Positions 15,280 to 59,358 of a stretch of DNA of 64,000 bases are shown in pieces. Both the position numbers and the translations under genes were made by a program. Below the pieces are notes generated by a model that did not search any database, was not told where the DNA came from, and saw only the letters and a list, made by a program, of their open reading frames with translations. Source of the DNA: Trichobilharzia regenti (lineage: Eukaryota > Platyhelminthes > Trematoda > Strigeidida > Schistosomatidae); the NCBI GenBank assembly GCA_944472135.2, contig OX235262.1, forward strand, positions 43,079,804 through 43,143,803, given 5' to 3'. Position 1 is the first letter of the stretch; each line of letters starts with the position of its first letter.

Positions 15280-15440
15280 AGGACTCTCGCCGACCATGCA
15301 CATGGTCCGGGGTTCGAGCCCACGCCGAAGCATACCATATATCTATGGTCGGCCTGCGAAATTCGGGATACCGATATCCACGCTGAAAATTCCATACTTG
15401 TGCCAAAAAATGCGGTAAGGAATCAAGCTGTAATCAAAAG
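15280..15440 (+). mobile_element. tRNA-derived SINE, 5' truncated copy
   Basis: Shares with the SINE at 19068-19249 the tRNA second half (GGGGTTCGAGCCCACGCCG, the B box), the middle part and the 3' tail from CGCTGAAAAT (15381) to AATCAAGCTGTAATC (15435). The A-box half is absent, so it cannot be transcribed by pol III from its own promoter. Confidence 0.8.
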
Positions 15441-18826: not shown

Positions 18827-19406
18827 TGTCAGTCAAGTCTCATAAACCGTTAATGACCAGCTCTTGCTACGCTGGGCCTCGCGCTGTCCCTCGAAGATTT
18901 TCAGAAACGCTTTGTATTAACCGACGCAAAAACCAAAACACTGTTTCGCGACTCAAGAATCCTTTATTCTAACGCCAACATATAACCAGCAATACTGCTT
19001 TTACAGAGTAAGGTCTAAGAACAAATATTATAATAATGTTATATATTATATATATATTATATAATATGTGCGTCGGTGGCACAATGGTTAGGACTCTCGC
19101 CGACCATGCACATGGTCCGGGGTTCGAGCCCACGCCGACGCACACCATATATCTATGGTCGGCCTGCGAATTTTGGGCTACCGATATCCGCGCTGAAAAT
19201 ACCATACTTGTACCAAAAATACGGTAAGGAATCAAGCTGTAATCAAAAATAAATCACGATATTACTTCTGACAGTTTTTCAATCCTCCCTCTCAACAGCG
19301 ACCGAAGTGACGATGACTGTCAGATTGATGACCCGCGAAAATTATGGGGAAGTTGGGTTTGAGCAAAAACCATGAACTGATCGTTCAATCTTCAACTACA
19401 TTGACA
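18827..19406 (-). repeat. L1 LTR, interrupted by a SINE
   Basis: Reversed LTR starting TGTCAGTCAAG and ending CTACATTGACA on the plus strand, aligned with the LTRs of L2-L6. An AT-rich run and a tRNA-derived SINE lie inside (about 19039-19249). The short PPT-like CCGGGGAG (reversed) follows at 19407. Confidence 0.85.
19068..19249 (+). mobile_element. tRNA-derived SINE, full copy
   Basis: The head 19068-19142 folds as a tRNA: GTGCGTCGG pairs with CCGACGCAC at the ends, TGGCACAATGGTTAGGACTC is the A box/D arm and GGGGTTCGAGCCC the B box/T arm. The D-arm sequence resembles tRNA-Glu or Gln. A body and a 3' tail (19191-19245) follow. About 44 of 54 tail positions match the LINE-E tail at 17697-17750 by eye. 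It would be transcribed by pol III and copied by the LINE machinery. Confidence 0.85.
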
Positions 19407-20542: not shown

Positions 20543-20703
20543 TCAGTTTGATGCCCTTAAGTTGGAAAATTGTCGCAGAGTTCATTTGCTGACTTCCTTC
20601 TATCATCATTCCTATACGGCGGTACGTTCGAAATTGGTGACATTTTTGCACGTGTTTGCTCTGAAATTTATTTACTGCTTATTGTCTTATAATTCTTGAA
20701 ATT

Positions 20704-22173
20704 ATGGTCCAAATCTCTGAAAAACGTGTTCGTAGAAACACTGTTGTTTTAGATAATGGCTCAAATTCAGTTATAACTGCATTACCGCCTGGTAATACAG
20801 TATCAACTACTAGCTCTCAAAATGATTTGAGTGCAGATCTCACTCCTGTGATACAGGTGAAAGATGTTCTGTTAGAGAAATCTGAGTTCTGTAAACTAAA
20901 CCTCCTTATGAAAGATATGCAGAGGCAAGTAAGTGAAATTCAGAAAATATTGGATCAGTTTGATAGTATGTCACTGCCAATCTCAAATACCACGGAGAGC
21001 CGTTCTGATATTGGCCAGGTTAAGTGTTTACTGGATGTAACTCAAAACAAGCTTTCGGATTTAGACCCAATAGCCTGTCTGTTAACACAACATCCTAAAA
21101 TATCTCAAGACAACCTAAATAAAGCTGAAAATCTGATTGACTGCTTGGCTACGGAGGTGATGAAGCGTATAACCCCTTCTCACCAAGCTATAGTTTACAA
21201 CGTCCCAGATTCTCTGCCCCTGAAAACTGTAAGACACAAAATCCTGATTTGTTGCGGCATGGCTAGTGTTCCATGTGAATGCAAACGACTTCGTAAAAAG
21301 TCTAACCAGGCTAATTGCCCAATCATTTTTAAATTCAGTAATTCCCTTGATGCTAGTAAGTTTACTAAATGTCAGGATCACTTAAGACTGAATAGCAGTT
21401 ATAAGTCTATAACCGTAGCTCAGGATAAAACACCATGTCAGCGCAGAATAATGCGTAGTAATAAACTTGTCACCTCCTCTAGCTTTGATTTACCAAAAAA
21501 GGATCGTGCACAGCAACAGACACCTAGTGCTGAAACTAGCTTTCAGCAAACTACACAACAACCACGCTTGCCAATGGAACTAGGAACTGATTTAGATACC
21601 AGTACCTCCGTAAATAAAGCCTCATCGAAAGATGTTAAAATGCCTAGAACTTCTGCAAGTTGTTCTAGGAAATTTCCCCCCAAACGCAGTAACCTCACCA
21701 CGATGAACAAATTCCGCAGGGTTGAGACTAATGATGAGGAAGAATACTTTGTATTCAATAAGCCTGCTGAGAGTAAGAATGTTAACAAACCATCACTTGT
21801 TACGAAAAACTCCTCTCGAAACATAAGTATATCTGGAGGTTTTCCGCATGCTCCACCTTATAGAAAGTCAGGCTCCAAGACTCCTAAAGCCTTGCAGCCA
21901 AAGCACCTTCCTTCACAATTCCTTTTAAGTTATAAAAACACCGCGAAGGTGTGTACCGGTATGATGAATAGCAGTTGGATGGATAGACCTTTTGATGGTA
22001 TGCTTTTTAACCGTCACCCTAGGCCCAAAGCCTACTACCCTTATATCCAGGAACACATGGTAAATTTTCCAGGTGTCCCGAATCACTGGTACGACCCATG
22101 GCACCTAGGACCACCTCATTGCAGTATAAACCCGATTTACGTACACGCAGTCCGACCCCCCTTTCATTCATAA
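20704..22173 (+). CDS. CR1-A ORF1 protein (nucleic-acid chaperone type)
   Basis: A 489-codon frame with ATG at 20704 after a 90-bp leader. Residues 50-150 are helical and coiled-coil-like. An AIVYNVPDSLPLKTVRHKIL block around 165-185 and a CKRLRKKS basic block suggest an RRM-like fold as in LINE ORF1 proteins. The second half is basic and low in complexity, Pro-rich near the end (HMVNFPGVPNHWYDPWHLGP). No CCHC knuckles are obvious. It presumably coats LINE RNA. It overlaps the ORF2 start by 76 nt in another frame. Copy 2 at 51956 is almost identical. Confidence 0.8.
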   Translation: MVQISEKRVRRNTVVLDNGSNSVITALPPGNTVSTTSSQNDLSADLTPVIQVKDVLLEKSEFCKLNLLMKDMQRQVSEIQKILDQFDSMSLPISNTTESRSDIGQVKCLLDVTQNKLSDLDPIACLLTQHPKISQDNLNKAENLIDCLATEVMKRITPSHQAIVYNVPDSLPLKTVRHKILICCGMASVPCECKRLRKKSNQANCPIIFKFSNSLDASKFTKCQDHLRLNSSYKSITVAQDKTPCQRRIMRSNKLVTSSSFDLPKKDRAQQQTPSAETSFQQTTQQPRLPMELGTDLDTSTSVNKASSKDVKMPRTSASCSRKFPPKRSNLTTMNKFRRVETNDEEEYFVFNKPAESKNVNKPSLVTKNSSRNISISGGFPHAPPYRKSGSKTPKALQPKHLPSQFLLSYKNTAKVCTGMMNSSWMDRPFDGMLFNRHPRPKAYYPYIQEHMVNFPGVPNHWYDPWHLGPPHCSINPIYVHAVRPPFHS

Positions 22174-22447
22174 ACTCTTGCGGTGCTGACGCACAAATAG
22201 ATTTAGGTTATGGTGACATTTTAAGCCAGTTTGTAGTATCCCGTGACTTATTCACGATATTGCTAATTAATGCACGTTCCTTAATCAATAAGATATCTGA
22301 ACTAAGGACATTATTATTAGTCGCCAAGCCTACTGTAGCTCTGATTACTGAGTCATGGTGCTCATCCTCTGTACTTGATGTGCATATAGGCATCGATGAT
22401 TACACTGTACACCGTGCAAACAGAGATTGCAAGCGTGGTGGAGGATG

Positions 22448-22451
<4 letters not shown>

Positions 22452-22497
<46 letters not shown>
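22452..22497 (+). repeat. (TA)n expansion inside the endonuclease frame
   Basis: Copy 2 has only a short TATATATA here (about 53703-53710). Copy 1 has a long run translated as repeated Tyr-Ile, directly after a GGGCLIYI block. Length is such that the frame stays open. Confidence 0.9.
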
Positions 22498-23161: not shown

Positions 23162-23521
23162 TGTCAATGCAGTTGAAGATTGAACGATCAATTCTTGGCT
23201 GTTTGCTCAAACCACCTTCACCAATTTTCGTGGAGGCATCAATACGACAGTCATCGTCTCATCGGTCGCTGTTCAGAAAGAAGTCAGCAGTAAACCATCA
23301 GAAGTACTATTGTGATTTATTATTGTAATATTTGTTCACAGACCCTAGTAAAATCATTATTTTTATATGTTGGTGTAACAATAAAGAATCCTCGAGTCAC
23401 CAATCGGTCTTGTGAATTTTTCGCCCGCTATTGCTAAGCGTTTCTGAAAAACTGCAAGGAACAGCGTGGGCCCGAGCGTAGCAACAGCTGGGCATTAACG
23501 GTTTATGAGACGTGACTGACA
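23162..23521 (+). repeat. L2 5' LTR
   Basis: 360 bp, TGTCAATG...ACTGACA. An AATAAA signal lies at 23380-23385. If the self-priming model is right, RNA starts near 23294 (ACCATCAGAAGT), making U3 about 132 bp and R+U5 about 228 bp. Confidence 0.88.
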
Positions 23522-23533
23522 GTTTCTGATGGT
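23522..23533 (+). promoter_or_regulatory. Candidate self-primer binding site of L2
   Basis: GTTTCTGATGGT starts at the first base after the LTR. It is complementary to 23294-23305 inside the LTR: ten Watson-Crick pairs plus two G-T pairs at the LTR-proximal end. L5 has a different pair of sequences that again match each other. The sequence then continues AGAAAC, so GTTTCT can also form a local hairpin. Confidence 0.65.
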
Positions 23534-23666: not shown

Positions 23667-26600
23667 ATGCCTGGGTCAAAGAAGGGACAGAGTGTCTTGG
23701 ATACAAACAGGAAAGTAAGTCATGGTGACTTGTCTGTTAATTGTAACGATGTGTCTGATGTTAAGCATGACATGGTTGATGTTACTGTTTCGCCGTTCAG
23801 GGATAATAGGAACATCAAACTCCCTAAATTAGAACCACGGTGTTTTGATGGAAACCCAGCTGATTATTTACAATTTGTAAAGGAGTTTGAGATCATGTTG
23901 AGTGGTTTTCTATCAAGTGATGAATTGAAGTTAATGTATTTGATGAGACATTGCACTGGAGGTGCTTCAAGAGCTATACAGTGCTGTGAGCTCATGCCCC
24001 TAATGAGGGATACGCTGAGGCTATGAGCATACTACGTCAAAGGTTTGGAAGACCTTCGATGATTGTAAGGAACGTATACGAAGCTGTCAAAGGTAACGGC
24101 AATCAACTTCAAGATGACTCCAAGGCACTCACTGAGTTTTTAGATAATCGACTTTCAGATGACAGTGGCTACAAACTAAGACACACTAGGGGTAGAGTAG
24201 CTATCGAACAATGTAAAACAGCTACCAGGCAAAAGTTTTACTTGATTAGGTATGCACAGATATGGAATAAACTACCAATGTAAATGCGTCAAGCAGGTAC
24301 ATTGGCCTCATTCAAAAAAGTGCTTAACGGCAAACTACAAGAGTTTGCAAACGATAGTAGTCCTAGTTCCTATCTGAGAGCCTCCGAAATTATAGGTCCA
24401 TTTAATGTATAATCTTAAATACTACACCTGTTGTTTTTTGCCTATATTTATAATTTTAGATAAAACATTAACTATTAAGATACTTACCCTCAAACAGACA
24501 AGAAGTTTCGTTTGTAAAACTCCTACCCAACACAACAAGTGGAATAAAACGGACATAAACCGACAACATGAAGAAGATATAACTCACCACAACATCACAT
24601 GGACAGATGTACCCTCGTCGGGCATTTTATATACCTCACCAACTACAACTCAACTTTCCTAAGATAATGTGATGAACTTATATCCGTAATGTTGCTGAGC
24701 AGTTAATATCCACAAATCCTGTCGGAACAACTAAAATTCAAAAACCCTCCTCATGAGAATTAAATACCCACAAGCAGTAGAAATCCATTAATTGATGCGT
24801 CCAAAGCTTATGTATTTTTCTCCCAACAATGACATTGCAGATCAAATGAGATAAGCAAATCACTGATTTCCAAATAACACAACAATGAACTATAATTCAA
24901 GAATTCTGTACACAACAAAATTATGTATGAAAACTGACTTCAAGCTTTATTTTTTTCTCCCAGGTACTTATAACCCATCCACCAAAGGCCTGGTTTTTTT
25001 TGTTAATGCGAAGACAATACTTCTGTATTTCCTGATGTGTTGCACTCACTGACAATCTAGCGGATTTTTCCAACTATGCACAGAAACGATTGTACATAAG
25101 TGAAAAGGATGTTTTATACTATTGGGATTAACATTTATCAAGTGTATGTATAATCTCCAGTGTACATGTTAAACATATTTTGCTATTGACTGTAAATTGT
25201 GACTGAATAATATGGTCCTATTTCTGTAACAATTTGATGATGCCTGTAAACTGGCGTCCCTCATGTACTGCATCATGAGAATAAATTTATTTATTTATTT
25301 ATTTATGACTTATGAGAAACCTTGATTTCTATGAATTGCATGAGTGACCTCAACTCGAGTTTTATACTAGAAGTAATAGCAAGACGCCTACCTACTCGAC
25401 TGCAAAGGAAGTGGGTGAGGATGAGGGTATCGAGCCAAAGTTTGATGATATCCTGAAACTAGTAAAAGATAGTGTCAATCAATCTATGAGCAAGTTTGCC
25501 AGTATATTGAATCTCACCCCTAGAATAGAGTAGTCTGAGATCAAAATGCAATCATTGATGACGAATAGGCCTCAGAGAGGTGGATATCGAGAAGGCTCCA
25601 TGATGTCTAGTAATGCATATAGACCTATTGAGTGTAACAGGTTTCGTAGTACATCCTCAACAGATAAGTTACAAGATGCAAGACAAACACGGTTGTGTTT
25701 TACACGTTTGCAAGAGGTGCATACAGAAGTGAACTGTGAACCGGTGAGCAAGTTCAGTGATAAGCTAAATGTGAACTCCAGGTCTGACTCCGAATTGTGT
25801 GACGATATCGGTGCGGTGAAGAAGTCTGTAGTTACAACTGGTAAGCCATTGTTGAATAAAGTGTCACAGAATAGAGTTGCTGCTTCAGAGTGGAGTTCTG
25901 ACTCCAAAAGTTTACAAAGTATAACTAGTCAGAGTGAAGATATAGAACCTTTAATGATTTGTGAGGAGGAACCAAAATTGTCTACTGCTGTTAACAAAGA
26001 GTTTCAAAATGATGAACTTGACGGTAAAGTGAATATATGTGATAATGATCATGATAGTGCAGATTTGTCTTTGGTTGATCATGATGAAATGGAGGGAATG
26101 CCTACTACCGCTAAGTTAAATAAAGGTTCTGTAGAACTTGAACGTGAAGTAGAGTTAAAGGCAGATGCAGTTGCAGAAGGCATGCATATTTGTGAGACCG
26201 TCAGTGTGAGTGATCAGCATGTAGTCCACCTATCATCAGATGCTAGTGCTAAATCTGAGCTGATAGTAAAAGACAGCAGTGGTGGTGGTCTTGCAGGTAG
26301 ACAAATTTCTGAAAGCCAAACAAGAACAGCTTCTGATCCACTGCTAACTTCATCAACTGGTATCAATCAGCCGTCGTTGGTGTTGTCATCCACAATGAAA
26401 CAGACGCCAATCAACTCAACTATCTTGTGCAATGACTCTGAGAGTGTTGGTGCGTTTGAAAAGACGAAAGATATTGCTCAGTTTAGTGAGGATAAGCCAA
26501 GTGTAAACGAGAGAGTAATTGTTAAATTGACTTGCACGAATAAAGGCATTTCAAGTTTCAAGTTACTATTTGAATGTTATTATCTTTGGTGTAAATTACT

Positions 26601-26999: not shown

Positions 27000-27703
27000 A
27001 AAGGAATTCCATCAAGACATGATCGGCGAGGTTGTTTGTACTATTTGTATATATGTGTGGTGTGTCATAGCAATTGGTGTATTTTGGATCCATTGTGTTT
27101 ACATGTTGTTTTCGTACCTTGTTGTTATTGCGTAATTTTGTTAAAATTTTCGTCGTGATTACTTCTGAAGTTGTTTCTAGTCTTCTACATCCGTGAATGA
27201 ATTGATTGATGTTAGAGACAGCAGATGGGTCGTATACGCCGGGGAGGCTAGGCTATTGCTGAGAATGAAATGCACACGGAGATAATTATTAGTTGTGGTC
27301 CGACACGCCGGGGAGAAAGAGTGTAAGCGACTGAGGCTCGCATACGTCATCGTTACTAGAACTGAGTCAGAATGATTGGAAAGCGATTTCAGTGGTAATT
27401 GGTAGTGAGTAGATAAGAGGATGAGCGTAGAGTATCGTGAGGTACTGCCATGGTCACGTTGCGTTCTGCAAGAGTCATTCTAGCAAGTGGCGATTGCGTT
27501 GCAAGAGGATGCCTTTAACTGGAAGGCGTAGGTCGTCGTCGATGAGTGAGATTGTGCTCTGTGTATGCCTGTGGTGTGTTGGCTTTTCTGTTTGTTTTCC
27601 ATTTCAGCTTTGTCCGTGTGGCTCAGGTTCTCTCAATTGCATCTAAGTCAACGTGCATTGGTCGTGATGGAAAAAAGGGATGGATCCGTTTTTTGCCGGG
27701 GAG

Positions 27704-28064
27704 TGTCAATGTAGTTGAAGATTGAACGATCAATTCTTGGCTGTTTGCTCAAACCACCTTCCCCATAATTTTCGCGGGTCATCAATCTGACAGTCATCGT
27801 CTCATCGGTCGCTGTTCAGAAAGAAGTCAGCAGTAAACCATCAGAAGTACTATTGTGATTTATTATTGTAATATTTGTTCACAGACCCTAGTAAAATCAT
27901 TATTTTTATATGTTGGTGTAACAATAAAGAATCCTCGAGTCACCAATCGGTCTTGTGAATTTTTCGTCCGTTATTGATAAGCGTTGCTGAAAAACTGCAA
28001 GGAACAGCGTGGGCCCGAGCGTAGCAACAGCTGGGCATTAACGGTTTATGAGACGTGGCAGACA
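27704..28064 (+). repeat. L2 3' LTR
   Basis: 361 bp, preceded by GAAAAAAGGGA and the short purine run CCGGGGAG, the likely polypurine tract. It keeps the ACCATCAGAA self-primer segment unchanged. The right terminus (GGCAGACA) is slightly altered. Confidence 0.88.
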
Positions 28065-29690: not shown

Positions 29691-30056
29691 TGTCAATGGA
29701 GTTGAAGATTGAACGATCAATTCTTGGTTGTTTGCTTAAAATCAACTTCCCCAATTTTCGCGGAGGCATCAATACGACAGTCATCGTCTCATCGGTCGCT
29801 GTTCAGAAAGAAGAGTGAAACATCGTCAGAAGTAATACAGAGATTTATTATTGTAATATTTGTTTTCAGATCTTAGTTTACTTAGTTCGTTTATTCCTTT
29901 TATATGTTGGTGTAACAATAAAGAAATAACAAGCGGCAGATCGGTGTTTTGGTTTTTGCGTCCGTTATAACTAAGCGTTTCTGAAACTCAAAGGAACAGC
30001 GTGGGCCCGAGCGTAGCGAGAGCTGGGCATTAACGGTTTATGAGACGTGATTGACA
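29691..30056 (+). repeat. Solo LTR (L6) in CR1-A copy 1
   Basis: 366 bp, TGTCAATGG...GATTGACA, flanked by GACGC (29686-29690) and GGCGC (30057-30061), a 5-bp duplication with one mismatch. The undisturbed site AAAAGACGCCTTAAGC is seen in copy 2 at 61083. No internal sequence is present, so it is an LTR-LTR recombination product. It carries the CATCGTCAGAA segment of the L5 type. Confidence 0.9.
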
Positions 30057-45830: not shown

Positions 45831-46265
45831 TTCACAGTTCACCTTTCTATGCACTTCCTGCAAACGTGTAAAACACAACCGTGTTTGTCTAGGATCTTGT
45901 AACTTATCTGTTGAGGATGTACTACGAAACCTGTTACACTCACTAGGTCTATATGCATTATTAGACATCATGGAGCCTTCTCGATATCCACCTCTCTGAG
46001 GCCTATTCGTCATCAATGATTGCATTTTACTCTCAGACTACTCTATTCTAGGGGTGAGATTCAATATACTGGCAAACTTGCTCATAGATTGATTGACACT
46101 ATCTTTTACTAGTTTCAGGATATCATCAAACTTTGGCTCGATACCCTCATCCTCACCCACTTCCTTTGCAGTCGAGTAGGTAGGCGTCTTGCTATTACTT
46201 CTAGTATAAAACTCGAGTTGAGGTCACTCATGCAATTCATAGAAATCAAGGTTTCTCATAAGTCA

Positions 46266-47422
46266 TAAATAAATAAATAAATAAATTTATTCTCATGATG
46301 CAGTACATGAGGGACGCCAGTTTACAGGCATCATCAAATTGTTACAGAAATAGGACCATATTATTCAGTCACAATTTACAGTCAATAGCAAAATATGTTT
46401 AACATGTACACTGGAGATTATACATACACTTGATAAATGTTAATCCCAATAGTATAAAACATCCTTTTCACTTATGTACAATCGTTTCTGTGCATAGTTG
46501 GAAAAATCCGCTAGATTGTCAGTGAGTGCAACACATCAGGAAATACAGAAGTATTGTCTTCGCATTAACAAAAAAAACCAGGCCTTTGGTGGATGGGTTA
46601 TAAGTACCTGGGAGAAAAAAATAAAGCTTGAAGTCAGTTTTCATACATAATTTTGTTGTGTACAGAATTCTTGAATTATAGTTCATTGTTGTGTTATTTG
46701 GAAATCAGTGATTTGCTTATCTCATTTGATCTGCAATGTCATTGTTGGGAGAAAAATACATAAGCTTTGGACGCATCAATTAATGGATTTCTACTGCTTG
46801 TGGGTATTTAATTCTCATGAGGAGGGTTTTTGAATTTTAGTTGTTCCGACAGGATTTGTGGATATTAACTGCTCAGCAACATTACGGATATAAGTTCATC
46901 ACATTATCTTAGGAAAGTTGAGTTGTAGTTGGTGAGGTATATAAAATGCCCGACGAGGGTACATCTGTCCATGTGATGTTGTGGTGAGTTATATCTTCTT
47001 CATGTTGTCGGTTTATGTCCGTTTTATTCCACTTGTTGTGTTGGGTAGGAGTTTTACAAACGAAACTTCTTGTCTGTTTGAGGGTAAGTATCTTAATAGT
47101 TAATGTTTTATCTAAAATTATAAATATAGGCAAAAAACAACAGGTGTAGTATTTAAGATTATACATTAAATGGACCTATAATTTCGGAGGCTCTCAGATA
47201 GGAACTAGGACTACTATCGTTTGCAAACTCTTGTAGTTTGCCGTTAAGCACTTTTTTGAATGAGGCCAATGTACCTGCTTGACGCATTTACATTGGTAGT
47301 TTATTCCATATCTGTGCATACCTAATCAAGTAAAACTTTTGCCTGGTAGCTGTTTTACATTGTTCGATAGCTACTCTACCCCTAGTGTGTCTTAGTTTGT
47401 AGCCACTGTCATCTGAAAGTCG
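46266..47422 (-). mobile_element. CR1-D LINE 3' fragment inside L3 Gag
   Basis: Same fragment, same Gag position and same (TTTA)n tail as in L2 at 24149-25306, reversed with the element. Shared nested structure means L2 and L3 descend from one element that already carried it. Confidence 0.8.
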
Positions 47423-48050
47423 ATTATCTAAAAACTCAGTGAGTGCCTTGGAGTCATCTTGAAGTTGATTGCCGTTACCTTTGACAGATTCGTATACGTT
47501 CCTTACAATCATCGAAGGTCTTCCAAACCTTTGACGTAGTATGCTCATAGCCTCAGCGTATCCCTCATTAGGGGGCATGAGCTCACAGCACTGTATAGCT
47601 CTTGAAGCACCTCCAGTGCAATGTCTCATCAAATACATTAACTTCAATTCATCACTTGATAGAAAACCACTCAACATGATCTCAAACTCCTTTACAAATT
47701 GTAAATAATCAGCTGGGTTTCCATCAAAACACCGTGGTTCTAATTTAGGGAGTTTGATGTTCCTATTATCCCTGAACGGCGAAACAGTAACATCAACCAT
47801 GTCATGCTTAACATCAGACACATCGTTACAATTAACAGACAAGTCATCATGACTTACTTTCCTGTTTGTATCCAAGACACTCTGTCCCTTCTTTGACCCA
47901 GGCATTGTTGAACTTGACCCAATTCCAAAACAGTTCCAGATATTGCTTGTTCAAAGAGGACTTGACCAGAACCAGGAAAGATGAACGGTGACTGTCCAAA
48001 CTTTCACCAACTGTTTGAATCCGCCAGTATCTGTTTCTACCATCAGAAAC

Positions 48051-48211
48051 TGTCAGCCACGTCTCGTAAACCGTTAATGCCCAGCTGTTGCTACGCTCGG
48101 GCTCACGCTGTTCCTTGAAGTTTTTTCAGCAACGCTTAGTAATAACGGACGAAAAAACCAAAAGACCGATCTGCCGAATGAGAATTCTTTATTGTAACAC
48201 CAACATATAAA
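48051..48211 (-). repeat. L3 5' LTR, truncated
   Basis: Begins TGTCAGCCACGTCTCG and runs as far as CAACATATAAAAA, about the U5 end and part of R. It then joins plus-strand Gag of L4. Preceding sequence (rc GTTTCTGATGGT at 48039-48050) is the L2-type primer site. Confidence 0.75.
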
Positions 48212-48222
48212 AAATATCTGTC

Positions 48223-50148
48223 TTGGATACAAACAGGAAAGTAAGTCATGGTGACTTGTCTGTTAATTGTAACGATGTGTCTGATGTTAAGCATGACATG
48301 GTTGATGTTACTGTTTCGCCGTTCAGGGATAATAGGAACATCAAACTCCCTAAATTAGAACCACGGTGTTTTGATGGAAACCCAGCTGATTATTTACAAT
48401 TTGTAAAGGAGTTTGAGATCATGTTGAGTGGTTTTCTATCAAGTGATGAATTGAAGTTAATGTATTTGATGAGATATTGCACTGGAGGCGCTTCAAGAGC
48501 TATACAGTGCTGTAAGTTTATGAAGCCAAAAGAGGGCTACTACGAGGCTATGAGCATATTACGTCAAAGGTTTGGAAGACCTTCGATGATTGCAGGGAAA
48601 TTATTCGAGGCAGTTGAGGGTAATGGTGGTCAATTACAGGATGACTCCCAGGCACTCACTGAGTTTTTAGATAATTTGCTAATTTACAAGAATGGAATGA
48701 TTTCAATGAATCGCATGAGTGACCTCAACTCGAGTTTTATACTAGAAGTAATAGCAAGACGCCTACCTACTCGACTGCAAAGGAAGTGGGTGAAGATAAG
48801 CTCCCGTATGGAGGATGAGGGTATCGAGCCAAAGTTTGATGATATCCTGAAACTAGTAAAAGATAGTGTCAATCAATCTATGAGCAAGTTTGCCAGTATA
48901 TTGAATCTCACCCCTAGAATAGAGCAGTCTGAGGGAGAAACGCAATCATTGATGACGAATAGGCCTCAGAGAGGTGGATATCGAGAAGGCTCCATGATGT
49001 CTAATAATGCATATAGAACTAGTGAGTGTAACAGGTTTCGTAGTACATCCTCAACAGATAAGTTACAAGATGCAAGACAAGCACGGTTGTGTTTTACACG
49101 TTTGCAAGAGGTGCATACAGAAGTGAACTGTGAACCAGTGAGCAAGTTCAGTGATAAGCTAAATGTAAACTCCAGGCCTGACTCCGAATTGTGTGACGAT
49201 ATCGGTGTTGTGAAGAAGTCTGTAGTTGCAACTGGTAAGCCATTGCTGAATAGAGTGTCACAGAATAGAGTTGCTGCTTCAGAGTGGAGTTCTGTCTCCA
49301 AAAGTTTACAAAGTATAACTAGTCGGAGTGAAGATATAAAACCTTTAATGATTTGTGAGGAGGAACCAAAATTGTCTACTTCTGTTATTAAGGAGTTTGA
49401 AAATGATGAACTTGACGGTAAATTGAATATTTGTGATAATGATCATGATAGTGCAGATTTGTCATTGGTTGATCATGATGAAATGGAGGGAATGCCTACT
49501 ACTGCTAAGTTAAATAAAGGTTCCGTAGAACTTGAACGTGAAGTAGAGTTAAAGGCAGATGCAGTTGCAGAAGGCATGCGTACTTGTCAAACCGTCAGTG
49601 TGATTGATCAACATGTAGTCCACCTATCATCAGATGATAGTGCTAAACCCGAACTAGTAGTGAAAGACAGCAGTGGTGGTAATCTTGCAGTTGGACAACT
49701 ATCTGAGAGCCGAACAAGAACAGCTTCTGATCCACCACTAACTTCATCAACTGGTATCAATCAGTCGCCGTTGGTGTTGTCATCCACAATGAAACAGTCG
49801 CCAATCAACTCAAGTATGTTCAGCAATGACAATGATAGTACTGGTGCATTTGAAAAGACGAAAGATATTGCTCAGTTAAGAGAGGATAAGCCAAGTGTAA
49901 ACGAGAGAGCAATTGTTAAATTGACGTGCACGAATAAAGGCATTTCTAGTTTCAAGTTACTATTTGAATGTTATTATCTTTGGTGTAAATTACTCTGTTT
50001 CTACACTTGGTTGATGAGATATGTCGTGTGTTTGTTCGTCATCTATATTCTACGATACAATGACATGGGCGTGTTTCCGTTCAGATTTGAGGATATAGCT
50101 GATAGAAGGAAATCAGCAAATGAACTCTGCGACGATTTTCCAACCTAG
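48223..50148 (+). CDS. Gag-like protein of L4, open but without its native ATG
   Basis: 641 open codons; the first is TTG (Leu in MPGSKKGQSVLDTNRK of other copies), so the native start is missing; the first in-frame ATG comes about 25 codons later. Order: DUF1759-type BEL/Pao Gag (about 35-190; LPKLEPRCFDGNPADYLQF, LRQRFGRPSMI, RLPTRLQRKWVKI), a CCHC-like knuckle LCFTRLQEVHTEVNCE with Arg for the second Cys, an acidic Ser-rich linker (290-560), a hydrophobic aromatic stretch (about 580-620; LWCKLLCFYTWLMRYVVCLF) and the end ANELCDDFPT. No protease, RT or integrase motif follows. Confidence 0.82.
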   Translation: MDTNRKVSHGDLSVNCNDVSDVKHDMVDVTVSPFRDNRNIKLPKLEPRCFDGNPADYLQFVKEFEIMLSGFLSSDELKLMYLMRYCTGGASRAIQCCKFMKPKEGYYEAMSILRQRFGRPSMIAGKLFEAVEGNGGQLQDDSQALTEFLDNLLIYKNGMISMNRMSDLNSSFILEVIARRLPTRLQRKWVKISSRMEDEGIEPKFDDILKLVKDSVNQSMSKFASILNLTPRIEQSEGETQSLMTNRPQRGGYREGSMMSNNAYRTSECNRFRSTSSTDKLQDARQARLCFTRLQEVHTEVNCEPVSKFSDKLNVNSRPDSELCDDIGVVKKSVVATGKPLLNRVSQNRVAASEWSSVSKSLQSITSRSEDIKPLMICEEEPKLSTSVIKEFENDELDGKLNICDNDHDSADLSLVDHDEMEGMPTTAKLNKGSVELEREVELKADAVAEGMRTCQTVSVIDQHVVHLSSDDSAKPELVVKDSSGGNLAVGQLSESRTRTASDPPLTSSTGINQSPLVLSSTMKQSPINSSMFSNDNDSTGAFEKTKDIAQLREDKPSVNERAIVKLTCTNKGISSFKLLFECYYLWCKLLCFYTWLMRYVVCLFVIYILRYNDMGVFPFRFEDIADRRKSANELCDDFPT

Positions 50149-50161
50149 GGCGTCAACCTGA

Positions 50162-50588
50162 GAAGGGTTGTAGGCGTACTGCTGTAAGTCCTACAATTCT
50201 TCATAGGGTAGCGCATCAATGAGCAGTGCAATGTGCTTGGTGTGTGATTTTGTACATATGTTCATGTTGTATATACTGAATTGATATCATCTGTCATCTA
50301 GCTGTTGGCGATTCTGTTTGTGTCCGGACGACTTGCACCTGGATCATCAACCTGAGAAGGAATGTAGGCGTATTGCTGTAAGTCCTACAGTTCTTCAAGG
50401 GTAGTTTGTCGTGTCAGAATCCACAACATTTGATGTAGTGATTGTACATATGTTTGTGTTAAATAGTTGTGTGAGTTCCAATTATCGCAATTGTTGGTTA
50501 ATCTTGTTTGTGTCTGGACATTCCACAACTTACAATCGTCAACCTGTGAAGGGTTGCAGGCGTACTGGTGTAATTCCTGCAATTCTTC
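50162..50588 (+). repeat. L4 3' UTR hairpin triplet
   Basis: Units 50162-50202, 50356-50396 and 50548-50588, 194 and 192 nt apart. Each has a 13-bp stem and a 15-nt loop. Unit 1: GAAGGGTTGTAGG / CCTACAATTCTTC. Unit 3: GAAGGGTTGCAGG / CCTGCAATTCTTC. The T-A pair has become C-G, a compensatory change. Loops share a TACTG(C/G)TGTA core. Confidence 0.75.
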
Positions 50589-51298
50589 CAAGGAATTCCA
50601 TCAAGACATGATCCGCGAGTTTGTGTGTACTGTTTGTTTATATGTGTGGTGTGTCATATCAATTGGTGTTTTTTGGATTCATTGTGTTGACTCGTTGTTT
50701 TCGTATCTCGTTTTCAATGCATAATTTTGTTAAAATTTTCGTCGTGATTACTTCTGAAGTTGTTTCGAGTCTTCTACATCCATGAATGAATTGGTTGATG
50801 TTAGAGACAGCAGATGGGTCGTATACGCCGGGTAGGCTAGGCTATTGCTGAGAATGAAATGCACACGGAGATAATTGTTAGCTGCGGTCCGACACGCCGA
50901 GGAGAAAGAAAGAAGACGACTGAGGCTTGCATGCGTTTTCCCTACTAGAACTGAGGCAAAATTAGTGACAAGCGATTGCAGTGGTAATTGGTAGTGAGTA
51001 GATAAGAGGATGTGCGTAGAGTATCATGAGTTGGTGCTATGGTCACGTTGCATTCTGCCAGAGTCATTCTAGCAAGTGGCGATTGTGTTGCAAGATGTGA
51101 AGAGGAGGTCTCTATCTGGAGGCGCAGGTCGTCAGCGATGTGTGAGATTGTGCTGTGGGTATGCTTGTGGTGTGTTGGCTTTTCTGTTTGTTTTCCATTT
51201 CAGCTCTGTCCGTGTGACCCAGGTTCTCGCAATGGCATCCAAGTCAACGTGTATTGGTCGTGAAGAAAAAAGGGATGGATCCCTGTTTTGCCGGGGAG

Positions 51299-51656
51299 TG
51301 TCAATGGAGTTGAAGATTGAACGATCAATTCTTGGTTGTTTGCTCAAAATGAATTTCCCAATTTTTCGCGGAGGCATCAATACGACAGTCATCGTCTCAT
51401 CGGTCGCTGTTCAGAAAGAAGAGTGAAACATCGTCAGAAGTAATACTATGATTTATTATTGTAATATTTGTTTTCAGACCTTAGTTCGCCTATTCTTTTT
51501 ATATGTTGGTGTAACAATAAAGAAATATCAAGCGGCAGATCGGTGTTTTGGTTTTTTCGTCCGTTATAACTAAGCGTTTCTGAAGTCTTCAAGGAACAGC
51601 GTGGGCGCGAGCGTAGCGAGAGCTGGGCATTAACGGTTTATGAGACGTGATTGACA
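51299..51656 (+). repeat. L4 3' LTR
   Basis: 358 bp, TGTCAATGG...GATTGACA. It contains the CATCGTCAGAA segment and an AATAAA in the usual position. Close to L5 and L6 LTRs. Confidence 0.9.
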
Positions 51657-51866
51657 ACAGGCGTTATGTGATGAGAAATCCGTTAGGTATGTCACGATAA
51701 ACATACTGTGGCACTCTAACAAATAGTCCCATCAGTTTTTGTATTCCTTCCCTCGTTGCTATTTCACTGTTGTTCTAATCTTCTATCACACATCAATTTT
51801 ATATATTATATCCCGTGGTGCATTGTTTGAAATGTAAACTCTACGCTGTTTTTTATTATTATTCTC
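51657..51866 (+). mobile_element. LINE-E 3' UTR fragment
   Basis: Matches 17403-17600 (CGTTATGTGATGAGAAATCC and following) at well over 90% by eye. Cut on the right by the start of CR1-A copy 2 within a short ATT-rich run. Confidence 0.8.
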
Positions 51867-51955
51867 TCTGGAGGTACGCTCGAAATTGGTGACATTTTTG
51901 CACGTGTTTGCTCTGAAATTTATTTACTGCTTATTGTCTTATAATTCTTGAAATT

Positions 51956-53440
51956 ATGGTCCAAATCTCTGAAAAACGTGTTCGTAGAAACACTGTTGTT
52001 TTAGATAATGGCTCAAATTCAGTTATAACTGCATTACCGCCTGGTAATACAGTATCAACTACTAGCTCTCAAAATGATTTGAGTGCAGATCTCACTCCTG
52101 TGATACAGGTGAAAGATGTTCTGTTAGAGAAATCTGAGTTCTGTAAACTAAACCTCCTTATGAAAGATATGCAGAGGCAAGTAAGTGAAATTCAGAAAAT
52201 ATTAGATCAGTTTGATAGTATGTCACTGCCAATCTCAAATACCACGGAGAGCCGTTCTGATATTGGCCAGGTTAAGTGTTTACTGGATGTAACTCAAAAC
52301 AAGCTTTCGGATTTAGACCCAATAGCCTGTCTGTTAACACAACATCCTAAAATATCTCAAGACAACCTAAATAAAGCTGAAAATCTGATTGACTGCTTGG
52401 CTACGGAGGTGATGAAGCGTATAACCTCTTCTCACCAAGCTATAGTTTACAACGTCCCAGATTCTCTGCCCCTGAAAACTGTAAGACACAAAATCCTGAT
52501 TTGTTGCGGCATGGCTAGTGTTCCATGTGAATGCAAACGACTTCGTAAAAAGTCTAACCAGGCTAATTGCCCAATCATTTTTAAATTCAGTAATTCCCTT
52601 GATGCTAGTAAGTTTACTAAATGTCAGGATCACTTAAGACTGAATAGCAGTTATAAGTCTATAACCGTAGCTCAGGATAAAACACCGTGTCAGCGCAGAA
52701 TAATGCGTAGTAATAACCTGGTCACCTCCTCTAGCTTTGATTTACCAAAAAAGGATCGTGCACAGCAACAGACACCTAGTGCTGAAACTAGCATTCAGCA
52801 AACTACACAACAACCACGCTTGCCAATGGAACTAGGAACTGATTTAGATACCAGTACCCCTGTAAATAAAGCCTCATCGAAAGATGTTAAAATGACTAGA
52901 ACTTCTGCAAGTTGTTCTAAGAAATTTCCCCCCAAACGTAGTAACCTCACCACGATGAACAAATTTCGCAGGGTTGAGACTAATGATGGGGAAGAATACT
53001 TTGTATTCAATAAGCCTGCTGAGAGTAAGAATGCCAACAAACCATCACTTGTTACGAAAAACTCCTCTCGAAACATAAGTATATCTGGAGGTGTTCCGCA
53101 TGCTCCACCTTATAGAAAGTCAGGCTCCAAGACTCCTAAAGTCTTGCAGCCAAAGCACCTTCCTTCACAATTCCCTTTAAGTTATAAAAACAACCCGAAG
53201 GTGTGTACCGGTATGACGAATAGCAGTTGGATGGGTAGACCTTTTGATGCTATGCCTTTTAACCGTCAACCTAGGCCCAACCTGTACTACCCTTATATCC
53301 AGGAACACATGGTAAATTTTCCAGGTGTCCCGAATCACTGGTACGACCCATGGCACCTAGGACCACCTCATTGCACACAAACCCGATGTACAGACACCCA
53401 GTCCGACCTCCTTTTCATTCATAAATTCTTGCGGTGCTGA
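51956..53440 (+). CDS. CR1-A ORF1 protein, copy 2
   Basis: 494 codons, almost identical to copy 1 for its first 470 residues. Near 53373 a small length difference (copy 1 CATTGCAGTATAAACC, copy 2 CATTGCACACAAACC) changes the frame, so the last 20 or so residues differ and the stop is later. The RRM-like AIVYNVP block and basic C-terminal half are kept. Confidence 0.8.
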   Translation: MVQISEKRVRRNTVVLDNGSNSVITALPPGNTVSTTSSQNDLSADLTPVIQVKDVLLEKSEFCKLNLLMKDMQRQVSEIQKILDQFDSMSLPISNTTESRSDIGQVKCLLDVTQNKLSDLDPIACLLTQHPKISQDNLNKAENLIDCLATEVMKRITSSHQAIVYNVPDSLPLKTVRHKILICCGMASVPCECKRLRKKSNQANCPIIFKFSNSLDASKFTKCQDHLRLNSSYKSITVAQDKTPCQRRIMRSNNLVTSSSFDLPKKDRAQQQTPSAETSIQQTTQQPRLPMELGTDLDTSTPVNKASSKDVKMTRTSASCSKKFPPKRSNLTTMNKFRRVETNDGEEYFVFNKPAESKNANKPSLVTKNSSRNISISGGVPHAPPYRKSGSKTPKVLQPKHLPSQFPLSYKNNPKVCTGMTNSSWMGRPFDAMPFNRQPRPNLYYPYIQEHMVNFPGVPNHWYDPWHLGPPHCTQTRCTDTQSDLLFIHKFLRC

Positions 53441-55380
53441 CGCACAAATAGATTTAGGTTATGGTGACATTTTAAGCCAGTTTGTAGTATCCCGTGACTT
53501 ATTCACGATATTGCTAATTAATGCACGTTCCTTAATCAATAAGATATCTGAACTAAGGACATTATTATTAGTCGCCAAGCCTACTGTAGCTCTGATTACT
53601 GAGTCATGGTGCTCATCCTCTGTACTTGATGTGCATATAGGTATCGATGATTACACTGTACACCGTGCAAACAGAGATTGCAAGCGTGGTGGAGGATGTC
53701 TCATATATATACATAACTCATTTGTAGTCAGTAAGGTGGAAGATGAAACAATGAATAATGTACCTGACTCACTCTGGGTTGTCTTACATGGAGATAAGTA
53801 CAAACTTCTCATAGGCTGTGTTTATCGAGCACCAAGCGCAACAAAAGAAACTGATGCGTTATTAGCTAAATCGTTTGCACATGCATCCTCGTTTAGTGCT
53901 AATTACAAAATAATTGCAGGGGACTTCAATCTTCCAGAAGTCAATTGGCTAACTAGTTCCGGCCCCCAACGCTTCGACGAATTACTTGCCACTATCGACT
54001 GTTATGGATGGCAACAACACGTCCAGACACCTACTCGTGGTGACAACATGTTGGACCTTGTTTTTTGTCATGACACAATCCCAGTATCCACTATGTTGGT
54101 AATAGATTTTCCAGTAGTGACCATAGAATGGTACTCTGCTCTCTGCCTTTCTCACCACTAAATACAGGAAACAAACAAGACTCAGGAAGCACAATATGTC
54201 GTAGTTACAAATATACAGACTGGGGATTAGTCCAAGAACTTATTCGACTCTGTCAATGGGATGACTATTTTACCACTGACTCCCTGGAGGCCTTAGTAAC
54301 CCTGTTTTACAGGAATGTTACCCTTTGTCTAGATACAGTTGCTCCAAAGAAAATAGTGAAATTAAGTAGACACCGAACTGAATATATTCCAAGGGCACAC
54401 CGTAATAAGTTAAGGAAGCTGAAGAAACAGTACTATTCCACTAAGGATATATCACTACTGCTCTCAATCCACGAGTCTCTTGAATCTATCAAGCGCCTAC
54501 GCTCTCAAAAGGACCTCGACGAAGAGTTAACGGCACTTGAAAGTACCTCCAAAGTTTATAACTTAACGGCACTTCTTAAAAAACGAATGCAGTCGGCGAG
54601 GGAAATCCCATACTTACTTCACGACAAAGTAATCTACAATGAACCTGCCACTATCTGTGAACTTTTCAGTGATTGGTTTGCAAACTTTAGTTTAGAAACA
54701 CATATGCCTGGTGAAACCTCCCCCCTTACTAGCTCTTCCCTTGAAAGCATTGTGTTCACTAATCAGTTAATAGTACAAGCAATTAAAAGCCTTAAACCTT
54801 CCACTAGTACGGGACCGGATGGCCTCGCTTCGATAATTTTCAAAAACAGTGGGTGTGATATACCCTGTTACTTCTTAAATTCTTCTCAATATCTATGGAC
54901 ACTGGCACTTACCCTAGTGAGTGGAAAACTAGCTTCATAATTCCACATTACAAATCTGGTGATAAGGCAAACGTCCGCAATTACAGACCCATAAATATAA
55001 CCCCAGTTATCTCACGAATCATGGAGAAAGTTGTAAAAGATCAATTGTCAGACTACCTAATTAGGGAAGATCTTGTTACAAGGTCTCAACACGGATTTCT
55101 CAAAAATAGATCCTGCGTTACTTGCCACTTCGACTTTTTCAACTGCATCACTAGTAGTCGCGAAGCACGTAAGCTAGTCGTTGTTCTCTACTTCGATATA
55201 TCTAGGGCATTTGACATGGTATCTCACAGTATTCTCTTTGAGAAGCTGTACTCTTGTGGAATTCGCAACCCATTACTGAACTGGTTAAAATCATTTCTAA
55301 GCAACAGGGTACAAATAACCCAAGTTGCATCTGTATTGTCTCATCCTAGGCAGATCTTAAGTGCGGTTGTGCAAGGTAGT

Positions 55381-56888: not shown

Positions 56889-58856
56889 CTAGGTTGGAAA
56901 ATCGTCGCAGAGTTCATTTGCTGATTTCCTTCTATCAGCTATATCCTCAAATCTGAACGGAAACACGCCCATGTCATTGTATCGTAGAATATAGATGACG
57001 AACAAACACACGACATATCTCATCAACCAAGTGTAGAAACAGAGTAATTTACACCAAAGATAATAACATTCAAATAGTAACTTGAAACTAGAAATGCCTT
57101 TATTCGTGCAAGTCAATTTAACAATTACTCTCTCGTTTACACTTGGCTTATCCTCACTAAACTGAGCAATATCTTTCGTCTTTTCAAACGCACCAACACT
57201 CTCAGAGTCATTGCACAAGATAGTTGAGTTGATTGGCGTCTGTTTCATTGTGGATGACAACACCAACGACGGCTGATTGATACCAGTTGATGAAGTTAGC
57301 AGTGGATCAGAAGCTGTTCTTGTTTGGCTCTCAGAAATTTGTCTACCTGCAAGACCACCACCACTGCTGTCTTTTACTATCAGCTCAGATTTAGCACTAG
57401 CATCTGATGATAGGTGGACTACATGCTGATCACTCACACTGACGGTCTCACAAATATGCATGCCTTCTGCAACTGCATCTGCCTTTAACTCTACTTCACG
57501 TTCAAGTTCTACAGAACCTTTATTTAACTTAGCGGTAGTAGGCATTCCCTCCATTTCATCATGATCAGCCAAAGAAAAATCTGCACTATCATGATCATTA
57601 TCACAAATATTCAATTTACCATTATCTATCTGGTCGACCTCATCATTACCAAAATCTTTAATAACAGAAGTAGACAATTTTGGTTCCTCCTCACAAATCA
57701 TTAAAGGTTCTATATCTTCACTCCGACTAGTTATACTTTGTAAACTTTTGGAGTCAGAACTCCACTCTGAAGCAGCAACTCTATTCTGTGACACTTTATT
57801 CAACAATGGCTTACCAGTTGTAACTACAGACTTCTTCACCGCACCGATATCGTCACACAATTCGGAGTCAGGCCTGGAGTTTACATTTAGCTTATCACTG
57901 AACTTGCTCACTGGTTCACAGTTCACTTCTGTATGCACCTCTTGCAAACGTGTAAAACACAACCGTGCTTGTCTTGCATCTTGTAACTTATCTGTTGAGG
58001 ATGTACTACGAAACCTGTTACACTCACTAGTTCTATATGCATTATTAGACATCATGGAGCCTTCTCGATATCCACCTCTCTGAGGCCTATTCGTCATCAA
58101 TGATTGCGTTTCTCCCTCAGACTGCTCTATTCTAGGGGTGAGATTCAATATACTGGCAAACTTGCTCATAGATTGATTGACACTATCTTTTACTAGTTTC
58201 AGGATATCATCAAACTTTGGCTCGATACCCTCATCCTCCATACGGGAGCTTATCTTCACCCACTTCCTTTGCAGTCGAGTAGGTAGGCGTCTTGCTATTA
58301 CTTCTAGTATAAAACTCGAGTTGAGGTCACTCATGCGATTCATTGAAATCATTCCATTCTTGTAAATTAGCAAATTATCTAAAAACTCAGTGAGTGCCTG
58401 GGAGTCATCCTGTAATTGACCACCATTACCCTCAACTGCCTCGAATAATTTCCCTGCAATCATCGAAGGTCTTCCAAACCTTTGACGTAATATGCTCATA
58501 GCCTCGTAGTAGCCCTCTTTTGGCTTCATAAACTTACAGCACTGTATAGCTCTTGAAGCACCTCCAGTGCAATGTCTCATCAAATACATTAACTTCAATT
58601 CATCACTTGATAGAAAACCACTCAACATGATCTCAAACTCCTTTACAAATTGTAAATAATCAGCTGGGTTTCCATCAAAACACCGTGGTTCTAATTTAGG
58701 GAGTTTGATGTTCCTATTATCCCTGAACGGCGAAACAGTAACATCAACCATGTCATGCTTAACATCAGACACATCGTTACAATTAACAGACAAGTCACCA
58801 TGACTTACTTTCCTGTTTGTATCCAAGACACTCTGTCCCTCCTTTGACCCAGGCAT
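56889..58856 (-). CDS. Gag-like protein of L5, intact 655-codon ORF
   Basis: Starts MPGSKEGQSVLDTNRK. Same organisation as in L4: DUF1759 Gag at about 45-200, knuckle LCFTRLQEVHTEVNCE (CX2R-X4-H-X4-C, second Cys lost), an acidic linker with SADFSLADHDEMEG, then FKLLFECYYLWCKLLCFYTW and VVCLFVIYIL hydrophobic segments and FRFEDIADRRKSANELC at the end. BEL/Pao elements normally continue into protease, RT and integrase; here a stop and a 3' UTR follow. It would form particles or bind RNA, possibly at membranes (inference). N-terminal third identical to L4; later parts match L2/L3, then L4 again. Confidence 0.85.
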   Translation of the reverse strand: MPGSKEGQSVLDTNRKVSHGDLSVNCNDVSDVKHDMVDVTVSPFRDNRNIKLPKLEPRCFDGNPADYLQFVKEFEIMLSGFLSSDELKLMYLMRHCTGGASRAIQCCKFMKPKEGYYEAMSILRQRFGRPSMIAGKLFEAVEGNGGQLQDDSQALTEFLDNLLIYKNGMISMNRMSDLNSSFILEVIARRLPTRLQRKWVKISSRMEDEGIEPKFDDILKLVKDSVNQSMSKFASILNLTPRIEQSEGETQSLMTNRPQRGGYREGSMMSNNAYRTSECNRFRSTSSTDKLQDARQARLCFTRLQEVHTEVNCEPVSKFSDKLNVNSRPDSELCDDIGAVKKSVVTTGKPLLNKVSQNRVAASEWSSDSKSLQSITSRSEDIEPLMICEEEPKLSTSVIKDFGNDEVDQIDNGKLNICDNDHDSADFSLADHDEMEGMPTTAKLNKGSVELEREVELKADAVAEGMHICETVSVSDQHVVHLSSDASAKSELIVKDSSGGGLAGRQISESQTRTASDPLLTSSTGINQPSLVLSSTMKQTPINSTILCNDSESVGAFEKTKDIAQFSEDKPSVNERVIVKLTCTNKGISSFKLLFECYYLWCKLLCFYTWLMRYVVCLFVIYILRYNDMGVFPFRFEDIADRRKSANELCDDFPT

Positions 58857-58987
58857 TGTTGAACTTGACCCAATTCCAAAAAAGTTCCAGATATTGCTTG
58901 TTCAAAGAGGACTTGACCGGCACCAGGAAAAATGAACGGCGACTATCCAAACTTTCACCAACTGTTTCAATCCGCCAGATCTGTTTC

Positions 58988-59000
58988 CATCGTCAGAAAC
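58988..59000 (-). promoter_or_regulatory. Candidate self-primer binding site of L5
   Basis: On the minus strand GTTTCTGACGATG follows the LTR directly. TTCTGACGATG (58998-58988) is complementary over 11 bases to CATCGTCAGAA in the LTR (59218-59228, minus strand), with two G-T pairs adding to reach the LTR edge. Compare L2. Confidence 0.65.
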
Positions 59001-59358
59001 TGTCAGCCACGTCTCATAAACCGTTAATGCCCAGCTCTCGCTACGCTCGCGCCCACGCTGTTCCTTGAAGATTTCAGAAACGCTTAGTTATAACGGACGA
59101 AAAAACCAAAACACCGATCTGCCGCTTGATATTTCTTTATTGTTACACCAACATATAAAAAGAATAGGCGAACTAAGGTCTGAAAACAAATATTACAATA
59201 ATAAATCATAGTATTACTTCTGACGATGTTTCACTCTTCTTTCTGAACAGCGACCGATGAGACGATGACTGTCGTATTGATGCCTCCGCGAAAGCTGGGG
59301 AAGTTGGTTTTAAGCAAACAACCGAGAATTGATCGTTCAATCTTCAATTCCATTGACA
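59001..59358 (-). repeat. L5 5' LTR
   Basis: 358 bp. Its inner end on the minus strand is GTGGCTGACA; the outer end is intact. The terminal bases differ slightly from the 3' LTR. Confidence 0.92.

Follow-up and report, generated by a model that had tools for sequence, protein, structure and literature searches.

The window analysed here, a 64-kb stretch on one large contig of the 954-Mb genome of Trichobilharzia regenti, contains several LTR elements of one group, whose features are collected in Table 1. Element L2 is flanked by CACCA and CGCCA, one base apart, and carries about 1.2 kb of extra sequence within its gag region (24149-25322) relative to the B element bearing the 48211-50148 frame. 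Between gag and the 3' LTR, repeat units at a spacing of about 191-194 nt were noted in both L2 (26749-27046) and this B element (50143-50635).

Table 1. LTR elements and proposed priming features in the 64-kb window
Feature	Coordinates	Strand	Remarks
Element L2	23162-28064	+	4.9 kb
5' LTR of L2	23162..23521	+	subfamily A; TGTCA...TGACA
Ten bases upstream of the L2 segment	23284..23293	+	A and B LTRs start differing here; possible start of R
Proposed self-primer segment ACCATCAGAA (L2)	23294..23303	+	followed by GT able only to G-T pair
AATAAA within L2 LTR	23380..23385	+	downstream of the segment
GT separating LTR from primer site (L2)	23522..23523	+	probably the bases trimmed by integrase
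Proposed primer binding site TTCTGATGGT (L2)	23524..23533	+	exact complement of 23294-23303
Polypurine-type tract GCCGGGGAG	27695..27703	+	precedes 3' LTR of L2
3' LTR of L2	27704..28064	+	95.9% to 5' LTR; same segment at 27837-27846
Element L5	55381-59358	-	
5' LTR of L5	59001..59358	-	subfamily B
Proposed self-primer segment ATCGTCAGAA (L5)	59218..59227	-	
Proposed primer binding site TTCTGACGAT (L5)	58989..58998	-	
DUF1759 (gag) open frame in L5	56889..58901	-	670 aa
3' LTR of L5	55381..55738	-	98% to 5' LTR; element flanked by the duplication ACTAC
DUF1759 (gag) open frame in another B element	48211..50148	+	645 aa
3' LTR of that B element	51299..51656	+	segment 51430-51439
Solitary subfamily B LTR	29691..30056	+	no adjoining element; segment 29822-29831
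3' part of a 5' LTR	48051..48213	-	followed by A-type site GTTTCTGATGGT (48050-48039)
Subfamily Z LTR	18827..19406	-	segment ACTGTCAGAA; interrupted by a roughly 200-bp insert

DUF1759, which we take to be the type of gag domain associated with BEL/Pao elements, was detected above the Pfam cut-off in six frames, two of them in the window (48211-50148 and 56889-58901) and the others at loci L011, L028, L018 and L020. One further match, at L020:959-1363, fell slightly under the cut-off, none was obtained in L011:5014-6240 and L020:1698-2858, and the sole frame scanned in L2 (25534-26754) had no Pfam match. No gypsy domain was found in the frames scanned, which, together with the DUF1759 gag, speaks against membership in the Tf1/sushi (Ty3/gypsy) group. 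Thirteen LTR pairs with matching flanks were listed, matching flanks being the filter for listing: 5-bp duplications flank 12 elements, of which 11 measure 3.4-4.0 kb and the twelfth 7.6 kb, and the thirteenth pair (L018), with 4 bp, is not an element. Locus L034 also showed a 5-bp duplication, the LTR flanks of L022 (GCCAG versus GCGAG) and L023 do not match, and L029 was examined for a 5' LTR and had none. A de novo search for LTR pairs (TG...CA, 5-bp duplications) over the window and 26 loci returned 11 pairs, none from another group. The BEL/Pao traits present are thus a DUF1759-type gag and TG...CA LTRs with short (4-6 bp) duplications. The BEL/Pao-type assignment of the original prediction is supported at the level of gag and LTRs, by the DUF1759 domain and the 5-bp duplications. 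The word DUF1759 does not occur in the main text of a survey of BEL/Pao elements (PMC3118150).

Reverse transcriptase frames were found inside L011, L016 and L028, and none could be accepted as the pol of the elements. Those of L011 and L016 are one LINE (94% alike), with endonuclease domains in L016, and that of L028 runs antisense to the gag there and is distantly related (23% identity across 423 aligned positions). Since the scanned copies are gag-only, they seem to depend on a partner, pol presumably being supplied in trans. Long open gag frames have been kept without visible pol in the window (48211-50148 and 56889-58901), in L018 and in L020. We therefore describe the elements as gag-carrying, BEL/Pao-type and probably non-autonomous LTR retrotransposons. 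Relatives of the 48211-50148 gag are concentrated in the same species, 31 of 34 protein database matches being from T. regenti (the best with 87% identity over the whole query). The other three comprised one named Trichob..., one from T. szidati (60%) and one from Schistosoma japonicum, entered in the database as a pol polyprotein and 44% identical across 44% of the query. NCBIfam gave no match to the S. japonicum protein or to any of three gag frames.

Directly after the 5' LTR of L2, GTTTCTGATGGT starts at 23522, adjoining the LTR end TGACA (23521), and pairs with ACCATCAGAAGT at 23294-23305 of the same LTR through 10 Watson-Crick and 2 G-T pairs. The ten bases that follow the LTR and GT (23524-23533) are a perfect complement of 23294-23303. 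On the minus strand, L5 (5' LTR 59358..59001) shows the same arrangement, CATCGTCAGAAGT and GTTTCTGACGATG forming 11 pairs plus 2 G-T pairs. Both pairings had been claimed in the original prediction and were found again on re-reading the sequence, with the qualification that pair 11 of L5 is not a property of subfamily B, as 13 of 20 B copies that are otherwise perfectly paired have A instead of G at nt 13 after the LTR. Ten pairs are common to A, B and a third subfamily, T; the core is accordingly put at 10 bp, and a general primer size of 11-13 bp was rejected. The Watson-Crick runs measure 10 nt in L2, 11 nt in L5 and 14 nt in T, and runs at least as long arose once (L2), once (L5) and never (T) per 1000 dinucleotide shuffles of each LTR. 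A 5' LTR complement of at least 10 bp to a site 0-5 bp past the LTR, the criterion used in PMC6317226, is thus found in these elements.

A further resemblance was noted at L020:748-784, where the U5 end of the T-family LTR reads GACAGTTTCTGAGAGT about 22 nt upstream of the proposed primer site, which resembles it; A copies have GGTTTATGAGACG at the equivalent position. This likeness may be a coincidence or may mark an older primer site.

If segment and site act as a pair, they should change together, and this was followed in 62 sampled places where both 5' LTR and leader could be recognised, 57 of them from A, B and T and five, all decayed, from subfamilies Z and C. With G-T pairs allowed, 10/10 bases were paired in 52 of the 62 places; 46 had ten Watson-Crick pairs and 57 had at least nine. 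The total of 599 paired positions out of 620 compares with a maximum of 558 in 10000 random re-pairings of the leaders, and at the varying pairs 2-4 the figures are 176 of 186 against a maximum of 135 in 10000. It should be noted that these shuffles carry no correction for the relatedness of copies, so that the independent evidence lies in the subfamily changes on both sides at three pairs. Positions 2, 3 and 4 of the segment read C,C,A in A, T,C,G in B, C,T,A in T, C,T,G in Z and C,C,G in C, and the primer sites hold the complements of these bases, both sides shifting in step; the other seven of the ten pairs are almost invariant. The covariation between relatives on which the original prediction had made its case depend therefore holds, strongly in A, B and T and thinly in Z and C, which have few and decayed copies.

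The way in which copies were collected bears on these numbers. Queries for A, B and T included the leader, which biases the sample towards copies with a matching site, and copies of one subfamily are not independent, at least three pairs of places (L010/L011, L021/L026 and two LTRs in L013) being likely duplicates by their flanks. Z and C copies were found with LTR-only queries and their LTR segments were known before any Z or C leader was obtained, the own segments of individual copies being read after their own leaders. The family-specific leader bases of Z complement the subfamily segment in two of three copies and form a G-T pair in the third (L078, position 4). For C they do so in both leaders, one copy's own LTR (L113) being off by one base. 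None of the three Z copies and neither of the two C copies reached 10/10 Watson-Crick pairs: L077 and L099 have the correct Z bases and one decayed constant base (L077 also one G-T pair), L110 has both family parts of C correct and two decayed constant bases, and L113 has the C site with an LTR reading ACCA, hence one mismatch.

Pairing was incomplete in 10 of the 62 places, mostly through decay of one or two bases. Mismatches at family positions occur in L113/L131 and in L022, which combines an A segment with a B site (8/10 paired). At the varying positions, two mismatches occur in one B copy and one in one T copy. A G-T pair due to the site base at a varying position was seen in one B and one T copy, and the A copy L027:538 has the segment ACCG with an A site, again giving a G-T pair. 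The remaining imperfect copies have decay in the constant part or at position 1. That segment and leader are merely conserved through shared descent and complementary by accident would agree with seven of ten pairs that hardly vary, but it leaves unaccounted three pairs that shift on both sides in step, to an extent unmatched in 10000 shuffles (relatedness uncorrected), and a probability of about 1 in 1000 or less for a single element; we regard this explanation as extremely unlikely.

Covariation argues for pairing rather than for priming as such, and the paired bases might instead form a functional long-range RNA structure, for instance in packaging, dimerisation or translation control. The A and B leaders also form a local hairpin, GTTTC...GAAAC, at the same place, a second complementarity at the site that would be in line with such a structure. 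The T copy L020 lacks the hairpin yet retains a 14-bp pairing with its LTR, and the hairpin was accordingly rejected as the true signal. The paired bases moreover begin at the canonical primer position, 2 nt past the LTR, where no other primer site is apparent, and their length is close to the 11 nt of the Tf1 primer, so that a purely structural role appears unlikely. When the RNA was assumed to begin at the segment, the predicted folds of A, B and T paired the segment with the site, most of the ten pairs having a probability of about 0.9-1.

Most LTR elements are primed by tRNAs, and a host tRNA or tRNA fragment could serve here as well, the LTR complement being incidental. TGG occurs at nt 9 in A leaders and at nt 12 in 7 of 20 B leaders, again at about nt 24-25 in A and B, and at about nt 16 in some T leaders. 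In A, B and T alike, none of these adjoins the LTR, the place of TGG varies by subfamily, and the L020 (T) leader has no TGG in its first 38 nt; the leader varies between subfamilies where the LTR does, which a fixed tRNA would not explain. When one A, one B and one T leader were compared with 11 tRNA 3' ends (several alike, from 63 matches listed among 159964 candidates), the best match was 7 bp within the first 40 nt and 5 bp when anchored at CCA. With the site changing together with the LTR and no match in this small sample of 11, the view of the original prediction that a fixed tRNA primer is unlikely is supported, and we consider tRNA priming improbable. In the tRNA search, tandem arrays of matches every 1.4 to 2 kb or so were observed at G000 C5:48144470-48201644 and C2:44128283-44147557.

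The 10-bp complement located 2 nt past the LTR and its covariation thus support Tf1-like self-priming, as put forward in the original prediction, in elements that carry gag only and whose gag is of BEL/Pao type; to this reading we give a probability of about 0.8 on the strength of sequence comparison. For RNA start, cleavage, extension, integrase trimming and site rewriting we infer the following course. The 5' part of the RNA, at the start of R, would fold across about 220 nt onto the ten bases after the LTR and GT. RNase H or another nuclease would then cut the RNA after the paired segment, and the freed 3' end would be extended through U5 and R. Retroviral integrase removes two bases from DNA ends. 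Priming at nt 3 would give DNA ends in CAGT, in which case the two G-T pairs need not form, and GT would be the two bases removed by integrase to leave ends in CA; at the LTR edge, the bases able to form the two G-T pairs are thus probably trimmed by integrase. Before the 3' LTR, too, AG precedes TG, as the last two bases of the tract GCCGGGGAG. Finally, the plus strand would copy the primer, so that in every round the primer site can be rewritten into a match for the segment; this would account for the joint evolution of the two.

Comparison of A and B bears on where the RNA begins. In an LTR alignment with 43 rows for A and 28 for B, from which repeated entries had not been removed, the 34 near-fixed differences between the subfamilies all lie at columns 126-382 and none in the first 126 columns, the segment occupying columns 136-145. 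Divergence between A and B over successive stretches of the first 126 columns (5, 8, 1 and 0%) is similar to that within A (4, 5, 1 and 0%) and within B (4, 7, 1 and 0%; eight copies each). Past the LTR, near-fixed differences in the first 400 nt are confined to nt 9, 11, 13, 36, 62 and 71 (16 A and 4 B copies), nt 13 being unfixed in a wider B set. Leader nt 9 and 11 are the site bases opposite the two changed segment bases. A switch from A to B limited to the bases of the primer site was rejected, since nt 13, 36, 62 and 71 change as well. By these alignments, U3 and the further leader are common to A and B, and the swapped block extends from about 23284 through U5 to the first 70 nt or so of the leader.

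Since A and B share U3 and differ from 23284 on, the start of the RNA may lie about 10 nt before 23294. If the swap arose at the first strand transfer, the upstream edge of the block would correspond to the RNA 5' end, some 10 nt before the segment. The original prediction had placed the RNA start at about 23294, upstream of AATAAA. The position of AATAAA downstream of the segment stands, and R could span from about 23284-23294 to shortly past 23400. The exact start at 23294 is less certain, the differences between A and B suggesting a position about 10 nt before it. The near-fixed leader differences reach beyond the site, so that ordinary block recombination can also account for the switch.

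A variant of self-priming should be considered at this point, in which priming takes place in trans between two packaged RNAs, the site of one receiving the 5' end of the other as its primer. If a template RNA loses its own 5' end as primer, a swapped block starting upstream of the segment would need a primer from a second RNA, and the arrangement is easier to obtain if the template retains its own 5' end. The L022 copy resembles the hybrid that would result: both of its LTRs are of A type, its leader has B-type bases at nt 9, 11, 36 and 62 and an A-like nt 71, and the whole fits a product of the first strand transfer. Ordinary recombination would yield similar blocks, however, and since the LTRs of L022 lack matching flanks it can be a product of DNA recombination between copies. 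Pairing in cis is also the simpler geometry and is predicted to be stable. We rate the trans variant as rather doubtful.

Self-priming by an LTR complement has been described in Ty3/gypsy elements (Tf1, Tj1, sushi, Tcn1) and in Ty1/copia elements (TAR, Houba, Osr-1; PMC4600332, PMC6317226). As in Tf1/Tf2 of S. pombe, Tj1 and the Tf1/sushi group, a 5' LTR segment of the T. regenti elements complements a site right past the LTR (PMC4600332). In the Tf1/sushi group this complement has been proposed or shown to prime instead of a tRNA, for Tf1 by experiment (cited in PMC4600332), whereas the T. regenti elements are known from their sequence. They further differ from this Ty3/gypsy group in the DUF1759 gag, in a 10-bp core that begins 2 nt past the LTR and in a possible overhang at the RNA 5' end. 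With the plant elements Tcn1 (Ty3/gypsy), TAR, Houba and Osr-1 (Ty1/copia) they share a complement of at least 10 bp located 0-5 bp past the LTR, but they belong to another superfamily and a non-plant host, and covariation between subfamilies is not described in the portions of PMC6317226 that we consulted. The fungal copia element GalEa, which has a hairpin directly past the LTR (the Conserved Hairpin Site) and no tRNA site, differs in that no LTR complement was found there (PMC5445492), whereas the T. regenti elements keep the LTR complement even where the hairpin is absent.

The host family is shared with schistosome BEL/Pao elements such as Sinbad, and Sinbad and Saci-1 presumably have the same type of gag as the T. 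regenti elements. The terms PBS, tRNA and priming are absent from the main texts of two BEL/Pao papers (PMC3118150, PMC554778), and no report of self-priming in BEL/Pao was met in these or in the available parts of PMC5006619, PMC2864245, PMC3601003, PMC6934838 and PMC4558846. This agrees with the original prediction, which knew of no such report, without proving priority. The elements thus appear to represent a known mechanism in a new superfamily. If so, each of the three LTR superfamilies would include self-primed members, and such elements would be independent of host tRNAs; the naturally occurring segment/site types open the mechanism to direct tests. A wider scenario, which we regard as possible rather than probable, is that BEL/Pao, as the third LTR superfamily, evolved self-priming independently and that R, U5 and the primer site form an exchangeable cassette. 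The RNA of one subfamily would prime on, and recombine with, that of another, and the primer copy would rewrite the site of the offspring. New primer/site pairs would then spread as units through thousands of gag-only copies, and the breakpoints would mark an RNA 5' end lying about 10 nt before the primer.

Other repeats were noted as well. ARAGORN found no tRNA over the window, and an Rfam scan of six sources at gathering score gave no match. A SINE-like short repeat with a tRNA-like B-box stretch, GGCTCGAACCCC, lies inside the Z-type LTR at 19038-19243 and recurs at 15280-15439 and at L030:2012-2224, the window having no Rfam match. Two LINE-like copies, 97.7% alike, occupy 20618-22464 and 51870-53715, with endonuclease domains at 53361-54161. 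The window also holds a head-to-head pair of elements (45831-48213 on the minus and 48219-51658 on the plus strand), and in the genome match lists LTRs with similar scores also recur as inverted pairs, at distances of some 2-25 kb.
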